Assembly (NCBI RefSeq): GCF_019857185.1 | Contig: NZ_JAHWXP010000003.1 | Span: forward strand, 649,501-713,500 | Reading direction: 5' to 3' | DNA: 64,000 nt | Origin: Alteriqipengyuania abyssalis | GTDB taxonomy: Bacteria; Pseudomonadota; Alphaproteobacteria; Sphingomonadales; Sphingomonadaceae | Shown: positions 17,066 to 38,247 of the stretch, in pieces | Layout: each line of letters starts with the position of its first letter | Numbering within the stretch: position 1 is the stretch's first letter | The notes under the pieces: generated by a model | The model's input: only the letters and a program-made list of their open reading frames with translations | The model's database searches: none | Told to the model about the DNA's origin: nothing | Program-made: the position numbers and the translations under genes

Positions 17066-17578
17066 ATGAGTGACGATGCGCCCGATAGCCTGATCCCCTA
17101 CGACCAGATCGTGCAGGAGGCCCTGCGCGCCGTGGTCGGCAGCGTGCTTGGTGAAATCGAGGCGGGCGGCGGTACGCTGCCCGGCAACCACCATTTCTAC
17201 ATTACGTTCAAGACCGGCGTCCCCGGGGTCGAGATACCCGACCATCTGCGGGAGCGTTTTCCGGACGAGATGACGATCGTCCTGCAGAACAAGTTCTGGG
17301 ATCTGAACGTGACCGAAGTGGGCTTTTCGGTCGGGCTGAGCTTCAATCAGCGATCCTCGCATCTGGTGGTGCCGTTTTCCGCGATCACCGCCTTCGTCGA
17401 TCCGGCGGTCGATTTCGGCCTGCAGTTCCAGGCGACCGAGGTGGAGGACTACCCCACCCCGACCGATGCCGCAGGAAACGACGGGTCGGACGATGCGGAA
17501 CGCGATCCGCGCGAGGCCGTTACCAAGAACGAAGACGGCTCGAACGTCGTCACGGTCGATTTCGGCCGCAAAAAGTAA
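17066..17578 (+). CDS. sspB: ClpXP adaptor protein SspB family
   Basis: A 170-residue protein of the alphaproteobacterial SspB family. The substrate-binding domain is visible ([37 protein letters not shown], then [23 protein letters not shown]). An acidic linker follows, and a short basic C-terminal tail ([10 protein letters not shown]) is of the kind that docks on the ClpX N-domain. It delivers ssrA-tagged and other substrates to ClpXP. GTG 17063 directly precedes the chosen ATG and cannot be excluded. Confidence 0.9.
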
Positions 17579-28689: not shown

Positions 28690-28714
28690 GGAACCGCGCG
28701 GCAGACGAGCCGTT
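28690..28714 (+). promoter_or_regulatory. EcfG-type general stress promoter
   Basis: GGAAC (28690-28694), 16 bases, CGTT (28711-28714), 34 bases upstream of the first gene of a three-gene operon. It exactly matches the GGAAC-N16/17-CGTT consensus of EcfG-family sigma factors in alphaproteobacteria. Confidence 0.7.
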
Positions 28715-33895: not shown

Positions 33896-34279
33896 TCAGG
33901 ATGCCTGGCGGGTTGCCGCAGGCTCGGCGAGTGCGAGCGCCGCATCGACGACCTTGCTGGAGCAAGCCGGCTTGGCAATCAAACGCGCGTTGAGCGCGGC
34001 AAGCGTGCCTTCCTGCCGATTGAGGTCGCCCGAGTGCAGGATGTAGGGAATGTCGCGCCGCTCAAGCTCGCGGGCGACCGGCATGCAGGTTTCTCCATCG
34101 CGCAGCGTCACGTCGAGCACGGCGCACGAGACACTGCCCTGCGCTTCTATATGCGCCAGCGCCTCGCGCACATTGGTCGCGGTCAGCGGACGGCATTCAC
34201 GGTCTTCCGCCGCGAATTCGAGATCCATCAGGATCAGCGGTTCGTCATCCAGCAACAGGATGCGGCATCCATCGATCAC
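33896..34279 (-). CDS. Single-domain response regulator coupled to LOV kinase
   Basis: A 127-residue stand-alone receiver domain. Acidic pocket: LLLDDEP (Asp11-Asp12), phosphoacceptor Asp56 in CAVLDVTLRDGE, Ser in YILHSGD and Lys103 in LIAKPACS. No output domain. GTG 34279 overlaps the kinase stop by four bases (GTGA), so kinase and receiver are translationally coupled. It probably acts as the phosphate acceptor or sink for the LOV-HWE kinase, as LovR does with LovK in Caulobacter. Confidence 0.87.
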   Translation of the reverse strand: MIDGCRILLLDDEPLILMDLEFAAEDRECRPLTATNVREALAHIEAQGSVSCAVLDVTLRDGETCMPVARELERRDIPYILHSGDLNRQEGTLAALNARLIAKPACSSKVVDAALALAEPAATRQAS

Positions 34280-35352
34280 GTATTGCCCCCTTCGATCGGC
34301 ACGGTCAGGACTGCGTGCAGCCCCTCCGGCTTCCATTCTCTCTCAATCGTGCCTCGCGCCGCAGCTACCATACGATTCATAATAGTCGCTCCGGTGCCAC
34401 TATGCGCCGGCGCACCGGAAATTGGTGCCCCGCCGGTCTCGATCCAGGTCAGCACCGCGTTGCCATCGCGCCGCTGCCAGTCGACCGACACCTGCCCGTC
34501 ATATCCCTCGGCCCAGGCGCCGTAGCGCGTGGCATTGGCCGCCAGCTCATGAAGCACAAGGCCGATCAGCGACATGGCCGAAAATGGCACCTGTGCGCCG
34601 TTACCCAGAAACTTCACCCGCTCGTCGACCGCGTAGGGTTCCAGGATCGCCTTCACCGCAGGGCCAAGATCGATCACCCCGACCGATGCTTCGTCGAGGG
34701 TAGTCTCGTATGCCCGGCCCAGCGCATGGATGCGGCTGTTTATCTCCGACGCGGTGTCTTCGACCCCGCGCACCCGGCCCATCACGTTGACGATGCCCGA
34801 GATGACCGAGAACATGTTCTTGATCCGGTGCGACAATTCGCGCGCCATCGCCCGGGCGTGGCGTTCTTCCTCGCGCGCCGCGCGCACGTCCGACACGTCC
34901 CACTGGCTCCCGAAGAAATAGAGCAGCTTGCCCTGCGCATCGTAAATCGGGCCCAGATGCAGCGCATTCCAGAACTCGGTGCCGTCCTTGCGGTAGTTGA
35001 GCAGTTCGACCACCACCACGTCTTCGTTCTCAATCGCCTCGCGCACCCGGCTGACCTCTGCGCGGTCGGTCTTGGGGCCTTGCAGGAAGCGGCAGTTGCG
35101 GCCGAGAATTTCGTCTTCGTCGTAACCGGTCAGCCGCCGGAACGCGCGGTTCGCGAACACGATCGGCTGGTCGGGCAGGTTCGGATCGCTCAGGCACACC
35201 GCCATCCGCGTTTGCGCCATTGCCTGTTCGAACAGAACTCCCGAGGTGTCGGAGAACCGGTCTTCGCTGCCGACATCCTTCATGTCGCGCCGCGGTCGGG
35301 CATTGGGATCGCGTTGCGATGCCTGACTATGTACTTCGGGTCGGTCGGCCAT
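34276..35352 (-). CDS. LOV-domain HWE-family histidine kinase (blue-light sensor)
   Basis: A 358-residue soluble protein. The N-terminal PAS domain carries the LOV flavin motif GRNCRFLQG with the adduct-forming Cys87, followed by Asn119, Asn129 and Gln150 (LLNYRKDGTEFWN, YFFGSQ), so it should bind FMN and form a photo-adduct in blue light. The kinase part is of the HWE type: H175 in RELSHRIKNM, N-box HELAANATRYGA (268-279) and the WxE motif WIE (303-305). Length and order match the Erythrobacter litoralis LOV kinases EL346/EL368. It has an EcfG-type promoter upstream and a coupled receiver gene downstream. Confidence 0.93.
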   Translation of the reverse strand: MADRPEVHSQASQRDPNARPRRDMKDVGSEDRFSDTSGVLFEQAMAQTRMAVCLSDPNLPDQPIVFANRAFRRLTGYDEDEILGRNCRFLQGPKTDRAEVSRVREAIENEDVVVVELLNYRKDGTEFWNALHLGPIYDAQGKLLYFFGSQWDVSDVRAAREEERHARAMARELSHRIKNMFSVISGIVNVMGRVRGVEDTASEINSRIHALGRAYETTLDEASVGVIDLGPAVKAILEPYAVDERVKFLGNGAQVPFSAMSLIGLVLHELAANATRYGAWAEGYDGQVSVDWQRRDGNAVLTWIETGGAPISGAPAHSGTGATIMNRMVAAARGTIEREWKPEGLHAVLTVPIEGGNT

Positions 35353-35407
35353 AGGTGTCCGTTAAGCTGGTGCCCGAAGGCTGCGCGCTATTAACATTGA
35401 TCGCTTG

Positions 35408-35432
35408 AACGAGCATATTCCCCGCTCGTTCC
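35408..35432 (-). promoter_or_regulatory. EcfG-type promoter of the LOV kinase gene
   Basis: On the - strand: GGAAC (35432-35428), 16 bases, CGTT (35411-35408), ending 56 bases before the kinase ATG at 35352. It fits the EcfG consensus exactly and implies feedback of the general stress response on its own light-sensing kinase. Confidence 0.7.
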
Positions 35433-37043: not shown

Positions 37044-37628
37044 TTACTGCGGCATCAGGACCGTATCGATCACGTGGACCACACCGTTCGAGGCGTCGAT
37101 ATCGGTCATCGTGACGGTTGCGGTATTGCCCGCGGCATCGCGCAGGACAACGTTGTTGCCATCCATCATCGCGGTGAGTTCCGCACCATTGACCGTGGTC
37201 AGCTTGTAACCGTCTTCACCCGCAGCTTCGATCGCCGCGGTCAGCGCGGCTGCATCGGTCGTGCCTTCGACGACGTGGTAGGTGAGAATGTTGGTCAGGT
37301 CTTCCTTGCCCGCTTCGCTCATCAGCTCGTCACGGGTCGCCTGCGGCACCTTGTCGAACGCGGCGTTGGTCGGCGCGAAGACGGTGTACTCGCCGCTCGA
37401 TAGCGTCTCGCCCAAGCCGGCTGCGGTCACCGCTTCGACCAGAGTCGAAAGCTGCGGGTCAGCCTGCGCGACTTCGACGATTGTACCGCTGGCCGCGTCA
37501 TCGACCGCCATCTGGTCGGCGGCGGTATCGTCGGTCATCGCAGTGTCGTCGTTCGCAGTGTCGGATTCGGCACACGCGGCGAGCGAGAGCGCAGCGACCG
37601 AGGCGAGCGTCAGGGCTAGCTTGTTCAT
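37044..37628 (-). CDS. Fasciclin (FAS1) domain lipoprotein
   Basis: A 194-residue protein with lipobox (LSLAACAE, Cys19), an acidic Asp/Thr-rich linker (about 22-47), and one FAS1 domain: LSTLVEAVTAAGLGETLSSG, YTVFAPTNAAFDKVP (H1 motif), NILTYHVVEG and the C-terminal GVVHVIDTVLMP (H2 motif). FAS1 domains mediate adhesion. It has its own upstream region and the terminator at 36994. Confidence 0.92.
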   Translation of the reverse strand: MNKLALTLASVAALSLAACAESDTANDDTAMTDDTAADQMAVDDAASGTIVEVAQADPQLSTLVEAVTAAGLGETLSSGEYTVFAPTNAAFDKVPQATRDELMSEAGKEDLTNILTYHVVEGTTDAAALTAAIEAAGEDGYKLTTVNGAELTAMMDGNNVVLRDAAGNTATVTMTDIDASNGVVHVIDTVLMPQ

Positions 37629-37770
37629 GAGGTTATCGTCCTTTCGGGGGCTTCGTAGACACGTCGCAGCCGGTTGGCCGCTCCGTTCACCCCATCAACG
37701 GACCGGGGCGCGCGATGTTCCGAATTTGGCGAAAATGAGGCATCCGGCCGCGATCCCGCGCCAGACGCGG

Positions 37771-38178
37771 TTAGTCCTCGATCCGGCCGATCACGCGAAC
37801 CATGCAGCTGTCAGTGCCGCTCGGCGAGGGGACCAGCAGGTTCGCGGTGTCTCCGGTGCACAGGTTCGACCCGAAGCGGTTGTCGAGCGCGACCTCGTAG
37901 GCGAAGTCGATGTCCCGGCAGTTGCTCAGCGTTTCGAGCACGAACCGCTCATTGGCGCGGGTCTTCACGAAGATCCGCTCATTCCCGTTGGGGGCATCGG
38001 GTGCCTCGGAATAGCGATCCGCGTTGCGCATGAAGAAGCACTGATTGCTGGTGTCGAGCCCGGCAAGCGTCTCCTCCGCAGTATCGCCTTGCGCGCTCGC
38101 GGGTTCGGGAACGGGTGCGCAGGATGCAAGGACGGTTGCCCCGGCCAGGGCCGTCAAACAGGCGATCGGATTGTTCAC
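37771..38178 (-). CDS. DUF6491-like lipoprotein
   Basis: A 135-residue protein. GTG 38178 lies 6 bases after AGGAGA and gives signal peptide VNNPIACLTALAGATVLASC with lipobox (Cys20). The body (NQCFFMRNADRYSEAPDAPNGNERIFVKTRANERF, then SNCRDIDFAYEVALDNRFGSN, then CMVRVIGRI) matches the DUF6491 pattern known from sphingomonads. It lies behind an EcfG-type promoter at 38222-38247. Confidence 0.78.
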   Translation of the reverse strand: MNNPIACLTALAGATVLASCAPVPEPASAQGDTAEETLAGLDTSNQCFFMRNADRYSEAPDAPNGNERIFVKTRANERFVLETLSNCRDIDFAYEVALDNRFGSNLCTGDTANLLVPSPSGTDSCMVRVIGRIED

Positions 38179-38221: not shown

Positions 38222-38247
38222 AACGGAAAACCGGGGGCGCGCGTTCC
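38222..38247 (-). promoter_or_regulatory. EcfG-type promoter of the DUF6491 gene
   Basis: On the - strand: GGAAC (38247-38243), 17 bases, CGTT (38225-38222), 44 bases upstream of the GTG start at 38178. Spacing and distance agree with EcfG promoters. Confidence 0.65.

Follow-up and report, generated by a model that had tools for sequence, protein, structure and literature searches.

A LOV kinase–LovR operon with a predicted EcfG-type promoter and its probable feedback on the general stress response in Alteriqipengyuania abyssalis

A blue-light kinase that is itself made by the general stress response sigma factor EcfG could act back on that response, and the locus described here raises the question of whether it does so and with which sign. 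The locus lies in a stretch of 64,000 nucleotides of the A. abyssalis genome (contig NZ_JAHWXP010000003.1, positions 649,501 to 713,500), which we call the window and whose own numbering is used throughout. Its features are as follows.

34276–35352, minus strand: lovK-type LOV–HWE histidine kinase of 358 aa, predicted EL362 counterpart (open reading frame, Pfam and NCBIfam matches, 58% identity to the LovR-adjacent 362-aa kinase and, with caveats, the tree)
34864–35232, minus strand: LOV domain spanning roughly residues 41–163, including the predicted photoactive Cys87 (PDB LOV matches over residues 41–163; position of Cys87)
34828–34830, minus strand: codon of the predicted phosphoacceptor His175 (residue position; His in 111 of 111 aligned kinases)
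34276–34279, minus strand: GTGA shared by the end of the kinase gene and the start of the receiver gene (sequence)
33896–34279, minus strand: lovR-type single-domain receiver of 127 aa with GTG start and predicted phosphoacceptor Asp56 (PDB 2msw, LovR match, conserved pairing)
35408–35432, minus strand: predicted EcfG-type promoter GGAAC-N16-CGTT (sequence; conserved upstream of relatives)

The kinase, its receiver and their closest known counterpart

The LOV and HWE signatures named in the original prediction were all found in the window kinase, where Cys87 lies within GRNCRFLQG and His175 within LSHRIKN, and where both HELAANATRYG and WIE are present. Pfam searches matched PAS_9 (2.1e-20) and HWE_HK (8.6e-10, 39.7 bits against a cut-off of 22.8), and the NCBIfam model NF010077/PRK13559 matched residues 9–355 with 449.8 bits, passing its cut-off of 361. 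Membership of NF052306, the NCBIfam equivalog for blue-light-activated histidine kinases, was rejected, given that the score of 284.7 bits is under the curated cut-off of 450. The best solved-structure match, over both the LOV and the kinase parts, was 6ph4, which we take to be the Brucella blue-light kinase, and the protein is 99% identical to the kinase of Citromicrobium bathyomarinum IOP_28.

For comparison we used 109 loci, made up of the best 80 of 249 matches and 29 of 30 family-genome loci, with the window's own locus excluded; together with the window and EL362 these gave 111 aligned rows. The loci were chosen by kinase similarity and some are near-copies, so the counts describe this kinase family only. 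The LOV Cys and three residues that presumably contact the flavin (Asn119, Asn129 and Gln150) occur in all 111 rows, as do the HWE residues His175, His268 and Trp303, and Glu305 occurs in 110. In seven relatives the LOV Cys sits in GRSC or GQNC variants of the motif, and its absence from these proteins was rejected on that ground. Judged by its residues and by the PDB LOV matches, the window kinase is a LOV photoreceptor, for which formation of the FMN adduct is expected from the family; by its HWE_HK score above cut-off and its phosphoacceptor His, N-box His and WxE motif, it is also an HWE histidine kinase.

The receiver gene begins with a GTG at 34279 and overlaps the kinase gene by GTGA, just as had been noted from the sequence. 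Its product scored 23.8 bits with the Pfam model Response_reg, below the cut-off of 30.2, and its best solved-structure match was the receiver 2msw (E 1.6e-20, 47 identities in 112 aligned columns, 42%), presumably the E. litoralis LovR (EL_LovR). The domain search gave no further domain in its 127 aa. Asp56 and Lys103 are present in 110 of the 111 rows, and a LovR-type receiver lies directly downstream of the kinase at every one of the 109 loci, with projected gaps between −22 and 42 and a median of 0. A LOV kinase with an adjacent single-domain LovR receiver, the arrangement that defines the EL362 and LovK–LovR systems, is therefore found in the window as well as at 109 of 109 loci.

As relatives in Erythrobacter litoralis the original prediction had named EL346 and EL368, which turned out to be the wrong ones, the counterpart being EL362 with EL_LovR. 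When the receiver stretch of 2msw was compared with 397 family genomes at E up to 1e-40, one genome (G208) was matched, with 100% identity, and its LOV kinases measure 362, 368 and 346 aa from the chosen starts. The LOV kinases of E. litoralis are named EL362, EL368 and EL346 in a passage of PMC10359499, and from the LovR match and the three kinase lengths we took G208 to be E. litoralis HTCC2594. The 362-aa kinase adjoins LovR in G208, as EL362 is reported to do in E. litoralis (PMC4438053). The window kinase is 58% identical to EL362, 43% to EL368 and 31% to EL346, and a search of the window's genome with EL_LovR gave nine matches, the best of them the window receiver.

The kinase tree bears on this assignment only in part. 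EL362 falls among relatives in a supported set of 23 rows, outside which the window kinase lies, and EL346 and EL368 stand near the unresolved base on very long branches (10 and 4.65). The tree has no supported fork that would separate EL368 from the kinase family as a whole, and the exclusion of EL346 and EL368 as counterparts is thus based on identity and branch length instead. Both are, like the window kinase, soluble LOV–HWE kinases, but besides their lower identity they are described, in a passage of PMC4438053, as orphans without a predicted adjacent receiver. The EL362–EL_LovR pair of HTCC2594, on the other hand, resembles the window pair in its two-gene order, in the sequence of its kinase (58% identity) and receiver (42%), and in an EcfG-like upstream motif, GGAAC-N16-GGTT, which begins 108 bases before the ATG and differs by its GGTT box from the exact CGTT of the window. 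Taken together, these features make it almost certain that the predicted window pair constitutes an EL362-type LovK–LovR operon, encoding a two-component system.

The predicted EcfG-type promoter

The motif GGAAC-N16-CGTT is present upstream of the kinase at 35408–35432, as originally predicted, with the small correction that 55 bases, not 56, separate it from the ATG. Across the genome (3.1 Mb) it is not in excess, its 36 matches being fewer than the 41 of the reversed control, and genome-wide enrichment was therefore rejected as support for a promoter, which was judged instead by conservation of position across relatives. To this end the window and the 109 loci were pooled, one locus with a short upstream region was dropped, and the rest were merged when more than 75% alike, leaving 89 upstream regions.

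The exact motif occurs in 26 of these 89 regions, which places it first of 360 letter permutations (mean 0.36, real motif included); the runners-up, with 9 and 8, largely share its letters. When spacings of 10–23 were tried, it was found only at 16 (21 regions) and 17 (5 regions), and on the opposite strand it was present in a single region of the 89. Allowing C/G-GTT raised the count to 34, and allowing up to one mismatch within the 180 bases starting at −200 raised it to 72 of 89, against a permutation mean of 4.26 and 35 for the next best permutation. In 64 long loci the kinase position gave 20 exact hits, whereas 37 control positions gave 0.27 on average and 2 at most. Because the spacers differ widely between relatives, the promoter boxes themselves appear to be kept by selection. 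Consistent with the one-mismatch forms seen upstream of the kinases, the −35 box GGAAC is reported to be mostly conserved and the −10 box flexible in a Sphingopyxis (PMC7083833).

The motif is not uniform in the family, given that the exact form is absent from 63 of the 89 regions, two or more mismatches are found in 17, and the C/G-GTT label needs 15 changes on the kinase tree; the last two figures suggest that some relatives have lost or modified EcfG control. For the window, the prediction of an EcfG-type promoter belonging to the kinase itself is borne out by the conservation of position and spacing across relatives and not by the genome count, and it is very probable that EcfG transcribes the operon from 35408–35432.

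The promoter boxes are enclosed by an inverted repeat, GAACGAGC-N9-GCTCGTTC, at 35407-35431, whose fold as single-stranded DNA has a z of −3.8. This repeat is shared with the 99% relative, C. bathyomarinum IOP_28, and is not present in the 83% relatives. A bidirectional promoter was rejected as a general feature, since only one of the 26 exact sites has the motif on both strands.

Stress-response core, other EcfG sites and LOV proteins of the genome

The window's genome (G000) contains a single NepR match, followed by an ECF-like sigma factor gene; PhyR, a single-domain receiver and a CHASE–HWE kinase are encoded at the same locus (L150). NepR and PhyR were called by their own Pfam models, and the sigma factor by region 2 and 4 models together with its place after nepR; by these assignments, the genome encodes EcfG, NepR and PhyR. 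At this core locus exact motifs stand before phyR, nepR–ecfG and the gene of the receiver, and for the divergent CHASE–HWE kinase a GGTT form can be read on the opposite strand at the nepR site. The nepR–ecfG genes and the neighbouring CHASE–HWE kinase appear to share one self-complementary EcfG site (L150:10069-10095) that is used in both directions. Among the eight HWE matches in the genome, only the CHASE–HWE kinase and the window kinase have the exact motif within 5 kb. The match of the core-locus receiver to SdrG was no better than that of another receiver. A further single-domain receiver (G000:C2:789794-790196, minus strand) with an exact EcfG motif upstream is a candidate relay partner.

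Six exact EcfG motifs occur in the 64-kb window, versus none for the reversed control, and five of the six stand 28-68 bases before an open reading frame on the same strand (one start chosen by eye). Those at 28690 and 55929 precede, as judged by eye, a small membrane protein and an outer-membrane-like protein, and the one at 17497 falls inside an open reading frame. Near lovK, a fasciclin-domain gene (37044-37628, minus strand) has the exact motif 68 bases upstream (37697-37721, minus strand). A fasciclin relative is present in 31 of the 109 kinase loci, and in 16 of these 31 GGAAC-N16/17-C/GGTT occurs within 200 bases upstream (one faulty row being counted as lacking it). Another exact motif (38222-38247, minus strand) lies 43 bases before the GTG, chosen by eye, of a gene for a small putative lipoprotein at about 37771-38178 on the minus strand; among the 109 loci this gene was found, motif included, only in the 99% relative C. 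bathyomarinum IOP_28.

The search for other LOV proteins comprised seven whole-kinase matches (E up to 0.001), eight HWE_HK and eight PAS_9 matches, with the Cys motif checked on 22 loci (one of the seven, on contig C5, through its HWE locus), and would miss a LOV protein outside these matches. Within this scope, no second LOV protein was found in the window's genome, the window kinase being the only one with the LOV Cys motif, whereas the HTCC2594-type genome G208 holds, besides its EL362 counterpart, the LOV kinases of 368 and 346 aa as well as another protein carrying GRNCRFLAG. In 18 of 30 family genomes whose kinase is 54% identical or more, a second match at E up to 1e-30 was lacking. 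The genome also gave four Photo_RC matches, and on account of these reaction-centre genes the organism is probably an aerobic phototroph. The genes form two separate pairs (G000:C1:236488-238160 and G000:C3:510289-511953); double puf sets are known in Citromicrobium.

Feedback on the stress response and its sign

By analogy with the family, FMN in the LOV domain would sense blue light through an adduct with Cys87, which would shift the balance of kinase and phosphatase activities at His175. Phosphoryl groups would then be exchanged with Asp56 of the co-transcribed LovR, as the behavior of EL362, LovK and Brucella LOVHK suggests. If EcfG transcribes the operon from 35408–35432, as the comparison of upstream regions supports, LovK and LovR would build up after the general stress response has been switched on. 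Because an EcfG-type promoter is conserved at promoter distance in many relatives, EcfG transcription and hence some feedback is to be expected, and the sequence thus lends support to the earlier suggestion that the kinase is an EcfG target within a feedback loop; we consider it likely that LovK–LovR feed back on the stress response.

The sign of this feedback is harder to assign. The claim that light input feeds into EcfG activation lacks support in that form, since in vitro EL362 is reported to transfer phosphate only to LovR, EL346 and EL368 phosphorylating both LovR and PhyR (PMC4438053), and since Caulobacter LovK–LovR are reported to restrain the general stress response (PMC5964349). According to a passage of PMC5964349, the Caulobacter proteins withdraw phosphate from MrrA in vitro, and a negative feedback loop is proposed there. 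This draining and the restriction of EL362 to LovR favor a brake, and a negative sign is our best guess, at about even chances. LovK–LovR would most likely serve as a phosphate sink, adjusted by light, into which the relay to PhyR is drained and by which the response is dampened, as in Caulobacter. The explanation as a whole, an EL362-type LovK–LovR operon that is made by EcfG and acts as a light-adjusted sink damping the stress response, is the one we moderately favor.

Two further known systems are close to the window pair. Caulobacter crescentus LovK–LovR, likened here from its published description, likewise combines a LOV–HWE kinase and a single receiver at one locus under sigma-T/EcfG control (PMC5964349, PMC4438053), but dampening of the stress response is reported there and only supposed for the window pair. 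Brucella LOVHK is also a LOV–HWE kinase, that of the best solved-structure match above if our identification of 6ph4 is right. It differs in that kinase and lovR are on different chromosomes and, in the account of PMC4438053, lovhk is outside stress-response control.

A positive loop, in which LovK would phosphorylate PhyR directly or via a relay and so reinforce EcfG, most strongly in the dark, with light inactivating the activator, appears possible although we would not bet on it. In the study of E. litoralis DSM 8509, lovK is said to be an activator, stronger in the dark. Genetic work on that strain also suggests a dark-activated response partly under a LOV-HK (PMC12148442), and Brucella LOVHK is reported to phosphorylate PhyR and to contribute to activation (PMC4438053); the LovR-only transfer of the counterpart EL362 nevertheless argues against this arrangement. 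It is rather unlikely that the operon is induced by EcfG but has its output elsewhere, on adhesion, motility or photosynthesis genes, with no real effect on EcfG and no loop, since reports on the LOV-HKs of Caulobacter, Brucella and E. litoralis connect each of them with the stress response or PhyR (PMC5964349, PMC10359499, PMC4438053), even though Caulobacter LovK–LovR also acts on attachment via hfiA (PMC5964349) and the domain search gave nothing beyond one receiver in the window LovR. That GGAAC-N16-CGTT is a chance match and the operon constitutive, as the lack of genome-wide excess would allow, is highly improbable in view of how strongly its position and spacing are conserved while the spacers diverge.

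Returning to the light-adjusted brake, the idea of such a feedback loop is already known from Caulobacter, where lovK and lovR are reported to be under sigma-T control (PMC5964349, PMC4438053), and what is added here is the EL362-type assignment, the conservation of the promoter over this group and the genome search for other LOV proteins. More tentatively, we can picture a lineage of aerobic phototrophs whose sole LOV photoreceptor would be a LovK signalling to LovR but not to PhyR. In it, blue light would set the strength of a self-induced brake instead of triggering the stress response; the sink would be built only after EcfG fires, the length of a stress episode would depend on light, and by retaining a single EcfG promoter much of the Erythrobacteraceae and Novosphingobium would have preserved this wiring.

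The arrangement is conserved and related to the one already described from Caulobacter and Erythrobacter. Since the searches gave one LOV protein and one NepR match, this genome would lend itself to simple tests of the light effect, whose sign is disputed. EcfG-type control of LOV kinase–LovR operons appears to be common in this group, in line with reports from Caulobacter, and the sensing of light is therefore probably integral to how the stress response feeds back in these bacteria. In this probably phototrophic marine bacterium, light may thus adjust how the general stress response feeds back on itself.
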